Source of the DNA: Terriglobales bacterium
GTDB taxonomy: Bacteria > Acidobacteriota > Terriglobia > Terriglobales > Acidobacteriaceae
Direction of reading: 5' to 3'
Length of the DNA: 64,000 nt
Assembly (NCBI GenBank): GCA_025462725.1
Contig: JAOAPE010000005.1
Span: forward strand, 62,001-126,000
The number at the start of each line of letters is the position of its first letter. Positions within the stretch are counted from its first letter, which is position 1. Below, in pieces: positions 27,830 through 52,072 of this stretch. The position numbers were made by a program, and so were the translations under genes. Under the pieces are notes generated by a model. It was not told the DNA's origin. It searched no databases and worked only from the letters and a program-made list of their open reading frames with translations.

Positions 27830-28256
27830 GCAGGCGGACTGGACGGTCGCTGCCGCTCACGTGAACGCTGGCTCTGCCAGGCCGTACGAGAGCGGGGGAG
27901 GAAAGTCCGAACTCCGCAGAGCAATGTGCCGGATAACGTCCGGGGGGTCGGCTTCAAAGCCGATTTACGGAAAGTGCCACAGAGAATATACCGCCAGAGT
28001 GGAAACACTTCGGTAAGGGTGAAAAGGTGCGGTAAGAGCGCACCGCGCATGCAGTAATGCATGTGGCAGGGCAAACCCCACACGGAGCAAGACCAAATAG
28101 GGAGGGAGTAACGGCTCACGCCGTTACGTGTCTCTGCTCGAGACGCCACAACCTTCGGGTAGGTCGCTGATGATTGGGCCAGCAATGGTCCGGCTAGAGG
28201 AATGACCGTTACTGCGAGAGATCGCAGGAACAAAATTCGGCTTATAGGTCGCTTGC
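27830..28256 (+). ncRNA. rnpB: RNase P RNA, bacterial type A
   Basis: Catalytic RNA of RNase P, which makes the 5' ends of tRNAs. Conserved core elements appear in order: GAGGAAAGTCCGAACTC near 27898 (CR-I), the ACAGAGAA-ATACCGCC region near 27979, GGTAAGGGTGAAA with GGTGCGGTAAGAGCGCACCGC near 28011-28043, TAGAGGAATGACCG near 28195, and ACAAAATTCGGCTTATAG near the 3' end. The termini pair as P1 (27830-27840 with 28246-28256). The CR-V-like strand reads ACAAAATTCGGC rather than the common ACAGAACCCGGC. A -10 box lies upstream and a strong terminator just downstream. Confidence 0.95.
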
Positions 28257-28262
28257 TACTGT

Positions 28263-48111: not shown

Positions 48112-49497
48112 CTAATAGTCATCGCCTGCGGGACCGATGTCGCCAGCCATGTTCTCAAACCGGGTGCTCTTCTTGATGAACGCCATCTTGATGGTTCCGG
48201 TTGGACCGTTGCGTTGTTTGGCGATGATGATTTCCGCGAGCCCTTCGAGTTCGGGATCGTCCTGCTTGTAAACCTCTTCGCGGAAGATGAACGCGACAAC
48301 GTCAGCGTCCTGCTCGATCGCGCCTGATTCGCGGAGATCAGAGAGTTGCGGACGGTTGTTTCCGGTACGTCCTTCAGGGGCACGGCTTAATTGGGAGAGC
48401 GCGACAACCGGCACGCGCATCTCCTTCGCGAGTGCTTTTAGCCCGCGCGAGATCGCGGAAACTTCCTGCGTGCGGTTTTCATATCGCTTGCCGCCGCCCG
48501 GAGGCGCCGCCGACATGAGCTGCAAGTAGTCAACGATAATCATGTCCAAGCGCTTCTGCGATTGCTGCAAGCGACGGACTTTGGCACGCATTTCGCTGAG
48601 CGAGATGCCCGGAGTGTCATCGATGAAGATCGGCGCTTGAGCCAGCGATTCGAGGCCGCTGGTGAGCTTGCCGAAATCGTCGCGACTGAGAAAACCCGTG
48701 CGAAGCTTGTGGGAGTCAACGCGCGACTGCGAACATAACATACGCAGAACAAGCGATTCGCGCGACATTTCCAGCGAGAACACAGCAACGCACTTGCCGT
48801 CCATCACCGCGGCATTTTCCGCGATGTTGATGGCGAATGCAGTCTTTCCCATAGAAGGACGCGCGGCGATGATGACCAAGTCAGAAGGTTGCAAACCGCT
48901 AGTCATCTCGTCCAGCTTGTCGTAGTGTGTTTCGAGGCCAGTGATGCGCTGTCCGCGCTGGTAGAGATTGTCGATGCTACCGAAGGAGTCCTTGACGATC
49001 TGCGGAATCCCGACGAATCCCTGGTTGATCCGGTCTTCGGCGATCTGGAAGATGGCGGATTCAGCAGAGTCGATGATCTCGGCCGCAGTGTCAGACTGCT
49101 CAAGAGCACGCGCAATCGCATTGTTCGAGGCGTGAATCAAGTTCCGCAGCAGCGACTTGTCTTTGACGATCTTGACGTACTGCTCGATCGAAGGCTGGTG
49201 AGGAACACCATCGATTAGCGACGAGATATAGGCAACACCGCCAACCGACTCGACTTCCTTCTTCCGTCCCAACTCTTCGGTGAGCGTGATGATGTCTATG
49301 GCCGCACCGCGCTCGTTCAGCTCCATCATCCGGGAGAAGATGCGGCGGTGCGCGTCGAGATAAAAGTCATCGGGACGAATGGACTCCGCGGCTTCGTTGC
49401 AAGAGGAGTTGTCGAGCAAGATGGCGCCGAGAATCGTGCGCTCAGCATCAACACTTGCCGGCAAACCGCGGTCGAGAGATTGGTCTAGTGTGGCCAA
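48112..49497 (-). CDS. dnaB: Replicative DNA helicase
   Basis: 461 residues. The N-terminal helicase-loader/primase-binding domain (PASVDAERTILGAILLD) is joined by a linker to a RecA-like ATPase: Walker A at about 212-219 (ARPSMGKT), Walker B in MIIVDYLQLM, and the arginine-finger region near the end. It unwinds DNA at the fork and binds DnaG, whose C-terminus is at the right edge of this window. No intein is present. First gene of a unit with alr. Confidence 0.97.
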   Translation of the reverse strand: MATLDQSLDRGLPASVDAERTILGAILLDNSSCNEAAESIRPDDFYLDAHRRIFSRMMELNERGAAIDIITLTEELGRKKEVESVGGVAYISSLIDGVPHQPSIEQYVKIVKDKSLLRNLIHASNNAIARALEQSDTAAEIIDSAESAIFQIAEDRINQGFVGIPQIVKDSFGSIDNLYQRGQRITGLETHYDKLDEMTSGLQPSDLVIIAARPSMGKTAFAINIAENAAVMDGKCVAVFSLEMSRESLVLRMLCSQSRVDSHKLRTGFLSRDDFGKLTSGLESLAQAPIFIDDTPGISLSEMRAKVRRLQQSQKRLDMIIVDYLQLMSAAPPGGGKRYENRTQEVSAISRGLKALAKEMRVPVVALSQLSRAPEGRTGNNRPQLSDLRESGAIEQDADVVAFIFREEVYKQDDPELEGLAEIIIAKQRNGPTGTIKMAFIKKSTRFENMAGDIGPAGDDY

Positions 49498-49711: not shown

Positions 49712-49903
49712 CTACTGGAATCTTATCACCGCCGGCCGTGATCCCTCATCGAAATGGCATCTGACCGCATCGCGAACCATGGTTTTGAGCTCGTCCATGG
49801 TTTCAGCCTGGGTAAATATCGACTGCCCCAGTGCATGGGCCTCATAGCCGCCCTGTGGAGATTCTCGATAGCGAAGATGATTTCTGTTCTGCTCATGAAC
49901 CAT
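49712..49903 (-). CDS. HicB-like antitoxin-type protein, short C-terminus
   Basis: 63 residues. The HicB-type fold signature is YRESPQGGYEAHALGQSIFT, then a helix TMDELKTMVRDAVRCHFDEG and the start of the last strand (PAVIRF). Relatives usually continue about 8-10 residues past this point, so this copy looks clipped. No HicA-type toxin gene lies on either side, so this is a solitary or remnant member; many such solitary proteins are not antitoxins. The upstream start ATG gives MVHEQNRN. Confidence 0.65.
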   Translation of the reverse strand: MVHEQNRNHLRYRESPQGGYEAHALGQSIFTQAETMDELKTMVRDAVRCHFDEGSRPAVIRFQ

Positions 49904-49964: not shown

Positions 49965-50064
49965 TCGACTCCGGACTTTCGTCCTCCGCTCGGGATGACA
50001 GAGTATGGAGATTGCGATTTGCTTTTAGAGTAAAAGGGATCCTTCGCTGCGCTCAGGATGACAA
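49965..50064. repeat. REP-like intergenic words upstream of the ncRNA terminator
   Basis: Two related stretches, CCTCCGCTCGGGATGACA (near 49983) and CTTCGCTGCGCTCAGGATGACA (near 50042-50062), resemble the dispersed CTTCGCTGCGCTCAGGATGAC element found in many genomes. They lie between the hicB-like gene and the 3' end of the large RNA. Confidence 0.5.
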
Positions 50065-50069
50065 GGGCG

Positions 50070-50105
50070 CAAAAAACAATCGCGGTCTGATTGCTCAGAC
50101 CGCGA
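50070..50105 (-). terminator. Terminator of the candidate large ncRNA
   Basis: Perfect 11-bp stem TCGCGGTCTGA with its complement (50095-50105 and 50080-50090), closed by a GCAA tetraloop on the minus strand and followed by TTGTTTTTT. One of the strongest terminators in the window, with no protein gene ending before it. Confidence 0.88.
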
Positions 50106-51391
50106 CTATTTTGGTGGATGTCCTATCCCATCACCGACTCAGTTGCCTAAGCCGCCGTGGGTCACGCGTTTCGCCGGTTGATCAACCTGTGGGCCCCCTT
50201 CCGTTACCGGAAGTTTTACGTCAACATCGCCTCGCGGAAATGTTGCCGAGTGCTTTCACTGGCTGAAGCCTGCCGCCTGTTTCTTGCAGGCCTGCCGACG
50301 AGCGCCGCTCTTTCTTATTCCTTGCCCTCTCGGGTTCGGAATAGGGCCGCCCACCACTCTCACGACTTACGCCGTGTTTAGGTGTGCGGTCTCTAGGCTG
50401 ATAAGAATTCATCCTGCAGCTTTCGCCGCCTGATGCTTACCAGTCTTACCGGCCAACCCGGATTGCACAGCCCCTTTCGAAGCCACACATCGCAGTTGGT
50501 CTTTTGCCAGCGGTCTTGTGGCTCTCACCACCTATTTGCCTGCGCTCTCGCGTTGGCAATTCAATGTCCGCCAGACGTTTGCCTCGTGATCTCTATCTTC
50601 CGCGGCTTTCACCACTGAAGCCTTCCATCACCCAGGGCTTGCAACTCTTTACTTCGTCTTTGAACTCCTTCCGAAACCGAACTTGCGTTCGTTCTCTTCC
50701 GAAGTCTGTGCTGTTCCTAAGAACATCACTGACGAAACAGTCTTATCAACATTCGCCTTCGCCGACTCGCGCCGGTGAACACAATCTGCTGACAACCGCT
50801 TAGATCCAACCTCGCTGCAACCTGCGTTGCTGCGCCTTTCGATCCGCGATTTATCTACCGAACATCTTTTTCCAGTTGCGACTGCTTACGCTCCCGCAAC
50901 TTTTGGTCTTTCGACTAGCCCAACGTTGCCGTCATTTCGCCTTGCGGCTGATGACTCGAATACTCACCTTGCGATGAATACCCGCAACGCCTGGCCGATG
51001 CTGTTACCAGCACTGCTTCCGAATTACTTCGATCGCAGCTTTCGGCAGACTGGCTACGCTACGTCCGGTGCCTCCAGCCGAAGCCAAAGTCCGTTACCGT
51101 TGCGCACCGCCGTTGCCTCACATGCATTCTGAACCCGCCCATTAAAGTGCTGGCCCACTCTGCATCCTTGGCCCCGACAACCTGACAGCCTTCGCAGTTT
51201 TCACCGCTGTGCTGCCGGCCCTTTTGCATTTCAAGAACTCTCGGTGAAACCTCGCGTCAGAACAGGTTTTTCAACCCACCCTTACTCCGGCCCCACTGCG
51301 GGTCCCCAATGCTGTTTCCCTTCCCTGCCCCTCGCGGAACAGTTTCAGAAAACTCAGGCTCGAGCGATTCAGGACATCGCACGCTCGCGTT
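50070..51391 (-). ncRNA. Candidate large structured non-coding RNA, class unknown
   Basis: About 1.32 kb without a convincing protein gene in any frame, between the DUF6526 and hicB-like genes, read on the minus strand. At least ten short hairpins can be drawn, and most have GNRA loops only when read on this strand: GTAA (50198-50213, 50874-50901, 50999-51012), GAGA (50316-50343, 50536-50559), GCAA (50678-50691, 50923-50932, 50939-50948), GAAA (50416-50429, 50906-50915). A longer composite stem lies at 50813-50834 and a 6-bp closing-type stem near the 5' end (about 51361-51386). It ends in a strong terminator. I could not match it by eye to RNase P, tmRNA, rRNA, group I/II introns, OLE, GOLLD, ROOL or HEARO. 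Confidence 0.7.
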
Positions 51392-51397
51392 GAATGC

Positions 51398-51425
51398 AAT
51401 GTACTCCTGCTAGGAATAGGTTCAA
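51398..51425 (-). promoter_or_regulatory. Possible promoter of the large ncRNA
   Basis: On the minus strand TTGAAC (51420-51425) and TACATT (51398-51403) are separated by 16 nt, a fair sigma-70 pair. Initiation would fall near 51391, just before the first stem (CGAGCG with CGCTCG). Confidence 0.45.
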
Positions 51426-51578
51426 GAGAAAAGCGACTGTTTTTTGTGCTTAAGCTGTGCAGAATGAGTACAAGTTGTGGAAATAGGTGGAAAAGGAGGA
51501 AATCAATTCAATTTCGCCGTAGATCGCGAATATTTCACGCGTGATTTCCTCCCGGATTTGCACCAGAAGCGCTACAAA

Positions 51579-52010
51579 TCAGACGCGGAAATAGTCAGCC
51601 CGCCAACTTACGATCGCTTTCTTAATCTCTTTTCTTGAAAGCTTCTCATCCAGCGCACGTTTTGTAAGCGCTGGCACTTCTGCATCTGAAGCAAAGCGCA
51701 ATGCGATCAGTTGGTCGGTTGAAAGCTCACCAATGCGTGAACGCAGATTCTCAGGCAGCACCGTCGCGAGTCGCAAACGTTCCTCAAGACGAATGATGCG
51801 ATCCTGAACCTTCAGCGAATAGAGACGCATCTTGAACACAGCTACCAATGCGGTGATTGCGGCAGCGAGCAAAAGCACAGCCTGTTTTTCGGGATGGCGA
51901 TAAAGATGAACGCCACAATAGATGAGGAAAGCAGACGCCATTGGCGCGAGAAAGAAATGGAACGGCGGATCCCACTTGGCGTGGTTCGATAAATTCTGTT
52001 CGTCTGGCAT
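51579..52010 (-). CDS. DUF6526 membrane protein
   Basis: 143 residues from the ATG at 52010, with AGGAG 5 nt upstream. N-terminal motif EQNLSNHAKWDPPFHFFLAP, two helices (about 24-42 and 45-64), then a soluble helical C-terminus with RLEERLRLATVLP and SRKEIKKAIVSWRADYFRV. This matches DUF6526. Function unknown. It lies about 60 nt downstream of the response regulator, on the same strand, and upstream of the large ncRNA. Confidence 0.82.
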   Translation of the reverse strand: MPDEQNLSNHAKWDPPFHFFLAPMASAFLIYCGVHLYRHPEKQAVLLLAAAITALVAVFKMRLYSLKVQDRIIRLEERLRLATVLPENLRSRIGELSTDQLIALRFASDAEVPALTKRALDEKLSRKEIKKAIVSWRADYFRV

Positions 52011-52072
52011 GAACGCTCCTGGTTTATTTCTTGGGATTGTACTCAGACGCTGCAAAGACTCAAGCCGATGCT

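Follow-up and report, generated by a model that had tools for sequence, protein, structure and literature searches.

A non-coding interval between DUF6526 and dnaB

Within the window (the whole 64,000-nt stretch of DNA that was analysed), a DUF6526 gene (51579-52055, minus strand) and dnaB (48112-49497, minus strand) flank an interval in which, one small ORF excepted, there is no credible gene. That ORF (49712-49903, minus strand), on the dnaB side, resembles HicB-type antitoxins by eye and has no Pfam match; a similar ORF start can be seen by eye in G003, a genome of the same genus. The remainder is largely taken up by what appears to be the gene for a large structured RNA, here called the GNRA-rich RNA, which runs for about 1.32 kb from a predicted start to the predicted end of a T-run. 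The initial annotation had placed it at 50070-51391, and these coordinates proved accurate.

A nucleotide search among the relatives and the family of the source genome, of the kind that the initial annotation had called for in Acidobacteria, recovered homologues in nine further genomes from three related genera of one acidobacterial family: g1, the genus of the window (G003 and G004, both copies cut by contig ends); g8, a third genus (one species, G011); and g70, a distant genus (six of the six species examined). One copy was found per genome, that of G178 being split over two contigs. The resulting sample comprises ten carrier genomes, all or nearly all of them metagenome-assembled. Assembly breaks fall inside the RNA gene in three of the ten (L065 start, L066 end, L063 start and L064 end); co-occurring strains with related copies may have confused the assembly.

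That no credible protein is encoded for over 1.3 kb, as first claimed, is borne out by several observations. The longest ORF wholly inside the interval has 101 aa and lies on the opposite (plus) strand, and a conserved protein frame, looked for among the homologues, was not found. In comparisons of close homologues, indel lengths divisible by three numbered 1 of 14, 2 of 29 and 3 of 36, single-nucleotide indels predominated, and substitutions showed neither codon phase nor periodicity. Because the indels are mostly of a single base and codon periodicity is absent, a protein-coding reading was rejected. The minus strand of the locus is purine-rich (about 60%), the plus strand having a GC skew of about -0.26 and an AT skew of about -0.25.

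Predicted promoter, closing helix and terminator

The features of the gene are collected in Table 1. The proposed TTGAAC/TACATT pair is present as a weak sigma-70 match: TTGAAC-16-TACATT agrees with the consensus at 8 of 12 positions, which is why a consensus scanner called no promoter. Its position and core (CTTG ... GAGTAMATT) are nevertheless kept in three genera in an alignment of nine upstream regions, and the GNRA-rich RNA would be transcribed from this conserved region. Farther upstream, the element at 51475-51494 is a unique exact match in its own genome, and an ACAG/ACAGG-type element occurs in most of the nine regions. A promoter element shared with RNase P was considered and dismissed, TCCACAA...ACAG occurring once in the window, only upstream of the GNRA-rich RNA.

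Table 1. Features of the GNRA-rich RNA gene in window coordinates; the gene is given first, then its parts from upstream to downstream
Feature	Position	Strand	Basis
Large structured non-coding RNA gene	50071..51391	(-)	Homologues, covariation, folding, non-coding tests
Conserved upstream element TTTTCCAC-N5-TCCACAA; TCCACAA invariant, weakly DnaA-box-like	51475..51494	(-)	Nine upstream regions aligned
Second conserved upstream element TTCTGCACAG (TTTTGAACAGG in g70)	51455..51464	(-)	Alignment
-35 element TTGAAC, CTTG core conserved	51420..51425	(-)	Alignment; no consensus-scan call
-10 element TACATT (TAAATT in most of g70)	51398..51403	(-)	Alignment
Almost invariant 5' segment ACGCGAGCGTGMGATGTCCTGAATCGCTCGAGCCTGAG, 38 nt	51353..51390	(-)	Alignment
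Closing helix P1, 5' strand GATGTCCT	51371..51378	(-)	Predicted in both separate folds
GNRA hairpin, 7 compensatory pairs, inside long 5'-domain helix stack	51259..51282	(-)	Fold comparison
Hairpin with a GAAA tetraloop kept in every sequence, covarying stem	51195..51206	(-)	GNRA count and fold comparison
Hairpin with conserved internal-loop sequence around GACCAACTGYGATG ... TGCAATCC	50458..50495	(-)	Alignment and fold comparison
Conserved 3' core, basis of covariance model R1	50264..50401	(-)	Alignment
Invariant CCCGAGAGGG hairpin within 3' core	50325-50334	(-)	Alignment
CTTCCGGTAACGGAAG GNRA hairpin, kept in all sequences	50198..50213	(-)	Alignment and fold comparison
GCAA hairpin, 5 compensatory pairs, directly before closing strand	50135..50154	(-)	Fold comparison
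Closing helix P1, 3' strand AGGACATC	50117..50124	(-)	Predicted in both separate folds
Terminator-like GCAA-capped stem and T-run	50071..50105	(-)	Sequence, hairpin count, fold comparison

Around the 5' segment, g1 and most g70 genomes agree at about 98% of positions over a 41-nt stretch. Part of it is predicted to pair, as helix P1, with a strand 1246 nt away that lies directly before the terminator, thereby joining the 5' and 3' ends and closing the molecule. A GTG/CAC extension of P1 is visible in the sequences; P1 itself is without covariation of its own because its strands are invariant, and CGCTCG of the 5' segment may alternatively pair with CGAGCG as a local hairpin. The terminator that had been proposed, a GNRA-capped stem with a T-run, is likewise present, its stem TCGCGGTCTGA-GCAA-TCAGACCGCGA being followed by TTGTTTTTT. 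The scanner listed this stem solely in the plus-strand reading, since on the minus strand the T-run begins some bases past the stem; the T-runs are shorter in g70. Just 3' of the terminator, outside the gene, lies a 27-nt element (50038-50064; TGTCATCCTGAGCGCAGCGAAGGATCC on the minus strand) that recurs across many genomes of Acidobacteria, one genome having as many as about ten copies among the matches listed, in the manner of a REP-like dispersed repeat. As this repeat lies beyond the gene, its matches to many genomes were discarded as evidence of RNA homology.

The conserved promoter, the near-invariant 5' segment and the closing helix together argue for a stand-alone RNA gene. Some of the same features would suit a trans-acting regulatory RNA, or the precursor of one, that base-pairs through its 5' segment, for the promoter region is conserved and apparently regulated and the 38 nt are almost unchanging. 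Such a role would leave more than 1.2 kb of further conserved structure unexplained, and part of the pairing segment is predicted to be engaged in P1, so that this explanation is given only a slim chance.

Distribution and genomic neighbourhood

From the 5' motif to the closing 3' strand the RNA measures 1274 nt in the window, 1311 nt in g8 and 1447-1488 nt in g70. Members of g70 are 66-90% identical in sequence to one another; comparisons across the three genera give 50-60%. Conservation peaks towards both ends and is lowest mid-gene (about 50600-51000), where the g70 RNAs hold extra hairpins.

R1, a homemade covariance model of the 3' core whose E-values are rough, recovers all eight carriers that hold the core (E below 1e-32). 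A search with it of 398 genomes of the family and 349 of the class gave nothing convincing beyond the known carriers, and among 337 genomes of the phylum it found the window's own genome alone; weak hits in G342, G380 and G541 were set aside because the other conserved motifs were missing. When 84,980 species genomes were scanned with a pattern of 19 fixed bases taken from the near-invariant 5' segment, the matches were four of the known carriers, each of them acidobacterial, and one Moraniibacteriota contig; the latter has no match to the core model and was rejected as unrelated. The same pattern had no match in viral contigs. The class therefore looks rare and clade-restricted as judged by these searches. 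In a DnaB tree, g1, g8 and g70 share a supported clade with two long-branched genera, a pair that lacks the RNA; this topology fits, without proving, a single origin, vertical descent and a single loss.

In g1 and g8 the RNA gene lies between DUF6526 and dnaB, with an additional GNAT gene between them in g8. The g70 genomes have it at other sites, where several members show a response-regulator/Fis-type gene on the upstream side; the genes downstream are of the S4-domain or DUF4142 type or have no family assigned. The neighbours thus differ between g1/g8 and g70 and no gene is a constant neighbour, so a stand-alone RNA gene, and not the leader of one particular gene, is the best reading. Other genera hold different genes upstream of dnaB, with the result that no empty site can be read. 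A tRNA search of the window and the homologous loci found none near the RNA, and the sampled neighbours belong to ordinary chromosomal families, with no phage structural genes among them.

Hairpins and conserved fold

The initial annotation had claimed at least ten minus-strand hairpins with GNRA loops. When loops of this type on stems of at least 4 bp are counted, reading the minus strand of the locus gives 17 such hairpins and the plus strand gives 0, as against a mean of 0.9 (maximum 5) in dinucleotide shuffles. Among all bins of 1.3 kb in the window the 95th percentile lies at 3, and the locus is the extreme. The accompanying argument from strand bias holds in part. A GNRA loop can never be GNRA on the opposite strand, and the bias carries information only in that 17 such hairpins lie on one strand, where about one is expected by chance. 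The RNA homologues carry 17-22 GNRA-capped hairpins per molecule, or 11-14.5 per kb. A search for the 16S rRNA of the same genome as a yardstick found none, and E. coli rRNA was therefore used: counted in the same way, there are 8 such hairpins in 16S (5.2 per kb) and 7 in 23S (2.4 per kb). Folding of single sequences against shuffles gives z = -12.4 for the minus strand of the window RNA versus -3.6 for the plus strand; the three single-sequence values obtained for the RNA strand were z = -12.4, -12.3 and -11.8.

The five full-length g70 sequences have a consensus (alifold) folding energy of -990, whereas shuffling the alignment columns yields -598 +/- 12.6 (z = -31). On the reverse strand the energy is -763 (z = -19.6). 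For the window with g8 the corresponding values are z = -20 on the RNA strand versus -15 on the other. Covariation in homologues, which the initial annotation had named as a check, is abundant. The phylogeny-aware nulls were made by redistributing substitutions over the tree and re-folding every null alignment. Against them, the count of compensatory pairs is 130 in g70 (nulls 39-59), where 24 helices hold at least two clean ones (nulls 0-5); an alignment of all seven sequences has 170 pairs (nulls 48-93) and 20 helices (nulls 1-7). The fold derived from g70 only and that from the window with g8 have 156 exact pairs in common, and 231 within one base, whereas register shifts of 3 to 60 bases leave 0-2. 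A decayed gene or a chance structured spacer might be suspected from the few genomes and the patchy presence in the family; covariation so far above both shuffled and phylogeny-aware nulls, and the agreement of two separately derived folds on those 156 pairs, make a non-functional sequence extremely improbable.

Of the 31 hairpin loops in the g70 consensus, 23 keep the GNRA type in four or all five of the sequences, and they interchange among GAAA, GCAA, GTAA and GCGA while their stems covary. Two loops do not change in the aligned sequences, GAAA in the hairpin at 51195-51206 and GAGA in that at 50325-50334, and both may be sites of specific docking. Helices that span long distances and have compensatory pairs, for instance 51043-51050/50853-50860 and 50295-50301/50171-50177, point to a global fold.

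These helices also bear on whether the RNA might be a sponge that, in the manner of CsrB/RsmZ, soaks up a hairpin-binding protein. The two have in common many repeated hairpins with one loop type, and the 17-22 near-equivalent small hairpins per molecule, in which loops stay GNRA as stems change, are what titration would call for. A bead-like sponge, by contrast, needs no long-range compensatory helices such as 51043-51050/50853-50860, nor an invariant 5' segment or a conserved unique core. CsrA binds GGA, the loop type of CsrB/RsmZ, and not GNRA; the GNRA-rich RNA is several times longer and has long-range covarying helices, and no candidate protein was identified. On balance a sponge is unlikely.

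Relation to known RNAs

The locus has no match in Rfam 15 at gathering thresholds, and permissive searches with three divergent members (window, g70 and g8) gave no significant match, in keeping with the initial view that no known large-RNA class is present. Sub-threshold hits to ZNRD1-AS1_2, Qrr, SNORA71 and tfoR were discarded, being far below their own gathering scores. The only gathering-level match in the window is a bacterial RNase P class A RNA at 27830-28260 (plus strand).

A ribozyme, or the self-standing descendant of a mobile intron, could be large and could conserve internal-loop sequences as highly as the 3' core does, in the way expected around active sites; large conserved RNAs such as OLE have come under suspicion of being ribozymes (PMC11332333). 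Group I intron, group II intron and RNase P models do not match the locus even at permissive thresholds, though the true RNase P of the window was found, which agrees with the earlier reading, in which no domain V of a group II intron was seen. Neither an intron-encoded protein nor the multiple insertion sites that would mark a group II intron were found: there is a single copy per genome, and no reverse transcriptase or homing nuclease is among the identified neighbours. This reading, too, is improbable.

The GNRA-rich RNA is large and non-coding and has a complex conserved fold with covariation, a description that fits the large ornate RNAs, and no known class among them. As far as structure goes, the missing Rfam match, the abundant covariation and the lack of a protein frame lend good support to the proposed new class of ornate RNA; on this sequence evidence the GNRA-rich RNA almost certainly represents a new class, found in a clade of uncultured Acidobacteriales. 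To our knowledge it is larger than any described class of non-ribosomal structured bacterial RNA, GOLLD exceeding 800 nt.

Neither GOLLD, ROOL nor OLE recognises it through its Rfam covariance model. Like GOLLD (RF01998) it is a large ornate RNA whose parts differ strongly in conservation. GOLLD has a conserved 3' and a less conserved 5' portion and is over 800 nt long (PMC12286853), whereas the GNRA-rich RNA has both ends conserved around a variable middle and measures about 1.3-1.5 kb. GOLLD is encoded by phages or prophages, often near tRNAs, and forms a homo-oligomeric cage; the GNRA-rich RNA has no tRNA near it and no phage genes among its sampled neighbours, and is set apart by unusually many small GNRA hairpins. 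ROOL, another large ornate RNA, likewise has no protein gene as an obligatory neighbour; it is carried by phages and prophages, often close to tRNA islands (PMC12286853), in contrast to the chromosomal GNRA-rich RNA with no phage genes identified nearby. OLE, also a large ornate RNA, shares with it a place on bacterial chromosomes, where the GNRA-rich RNA is single-copy; OLE is about 600 nt long, occurs mostly in Bacillota and works with OapA and other proteins, while the GNRA-rich RNA has no constant protein neighbour. Acido-1 (RF01686) and Acido-Lenti-1 (RF01687), structured motifs from Acidobacteria that were described in 2010 and have Rfam accessions (PMC2864571), do not match it with either model. 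Acidobacteria are not mentioned in the main text of the 2021 and 2024 genome-wide RNA discovery papers, in their open-licence full text.

A possible architectural role

Very few structured non-ribosomal bacterial RNAs approach 1 kb, and GOLLD, ROOL and OLE among them formed unexpected RNA assemblies. GNRA loops are classic A-minor donors. Together with the long-range covarying helices, the analogy with OLE, ROOL and GOLLD suggests that the RNA would fold to a compact multi-domain body, in which many GNRA tetraloops may dock into helix minor grooves, and that it may act architecturally as a monomer, an RNA-only oligomer or an RNP scaffold, as those RNAs do. In the assemblies of OLE, ROOL and GOLLD, A-minor contacts and kissing loops hold the RNAs together (PMC12286853).

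Some observations count against this. Among conserved unpaired columns there is no additional pseudoknot or complementarity of at least 5 bp, and halves of the canonical 11-nt receptor (TATGG/CCTAAG) do not occur in consistent positions; the missing GAAA receptor and the missing extra complementarity both weigh against an architectural role. Sequence analysis of the RNA found no protein partner, ligand or oligomeric contact, and GNRA loops can cap stable hairpins without tertiary docking. By analogy, an architectural mechanism is held with moderate confidence, and the complete reading, a stand-alone gene for a large (1.3-1.5 kb), undescribed class of non-coding RNA that works in this way, is slightly favoured. 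That it is the largest structured non-ribosomal bacterial RNA class so far, near 16S in size, forming an RNA-based particle or machine of its own with a function unlike that of any known RNA, is a tentative and rather doubtful extension.

The GNRA-rich RNA ranks among the largest non-ribosomal folded RNAs known from bacteria. Its carriers are some uncultured soil and groundwater Acidobacteria, and the fold is kept across genera at the 50-60% identity given above; chromosomes of uncultured soil bacteria hold giant RNAs that are missing from Rfam. With about 20 GNRA tetraloops and strong covariation it is a ready target for cryo-EM, which would test how generally large RNAs form cages or particles; PMC12286853 explicitly leaves that question open.

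Elements resembling a replication origin

A palindrome, TGTTCCACGTGGAACA, occurs three times beside TTTTCCACA with a spacing of 85-87 nt (L090 1491-1701; G000:C4, about 281890-282110), and in single copies elsewhere in the genome. The clustered sites look like ParB parS sites beside DnaA-box-like sequences, and perhaps mark an origin region. The upstream element at 51475-51494 resembles the DnaA-box-like sequence at this putative origin, and the RNA gene adjoins dnaB in two genera; a link of the GNRA-rich RNA to replication control is possible.
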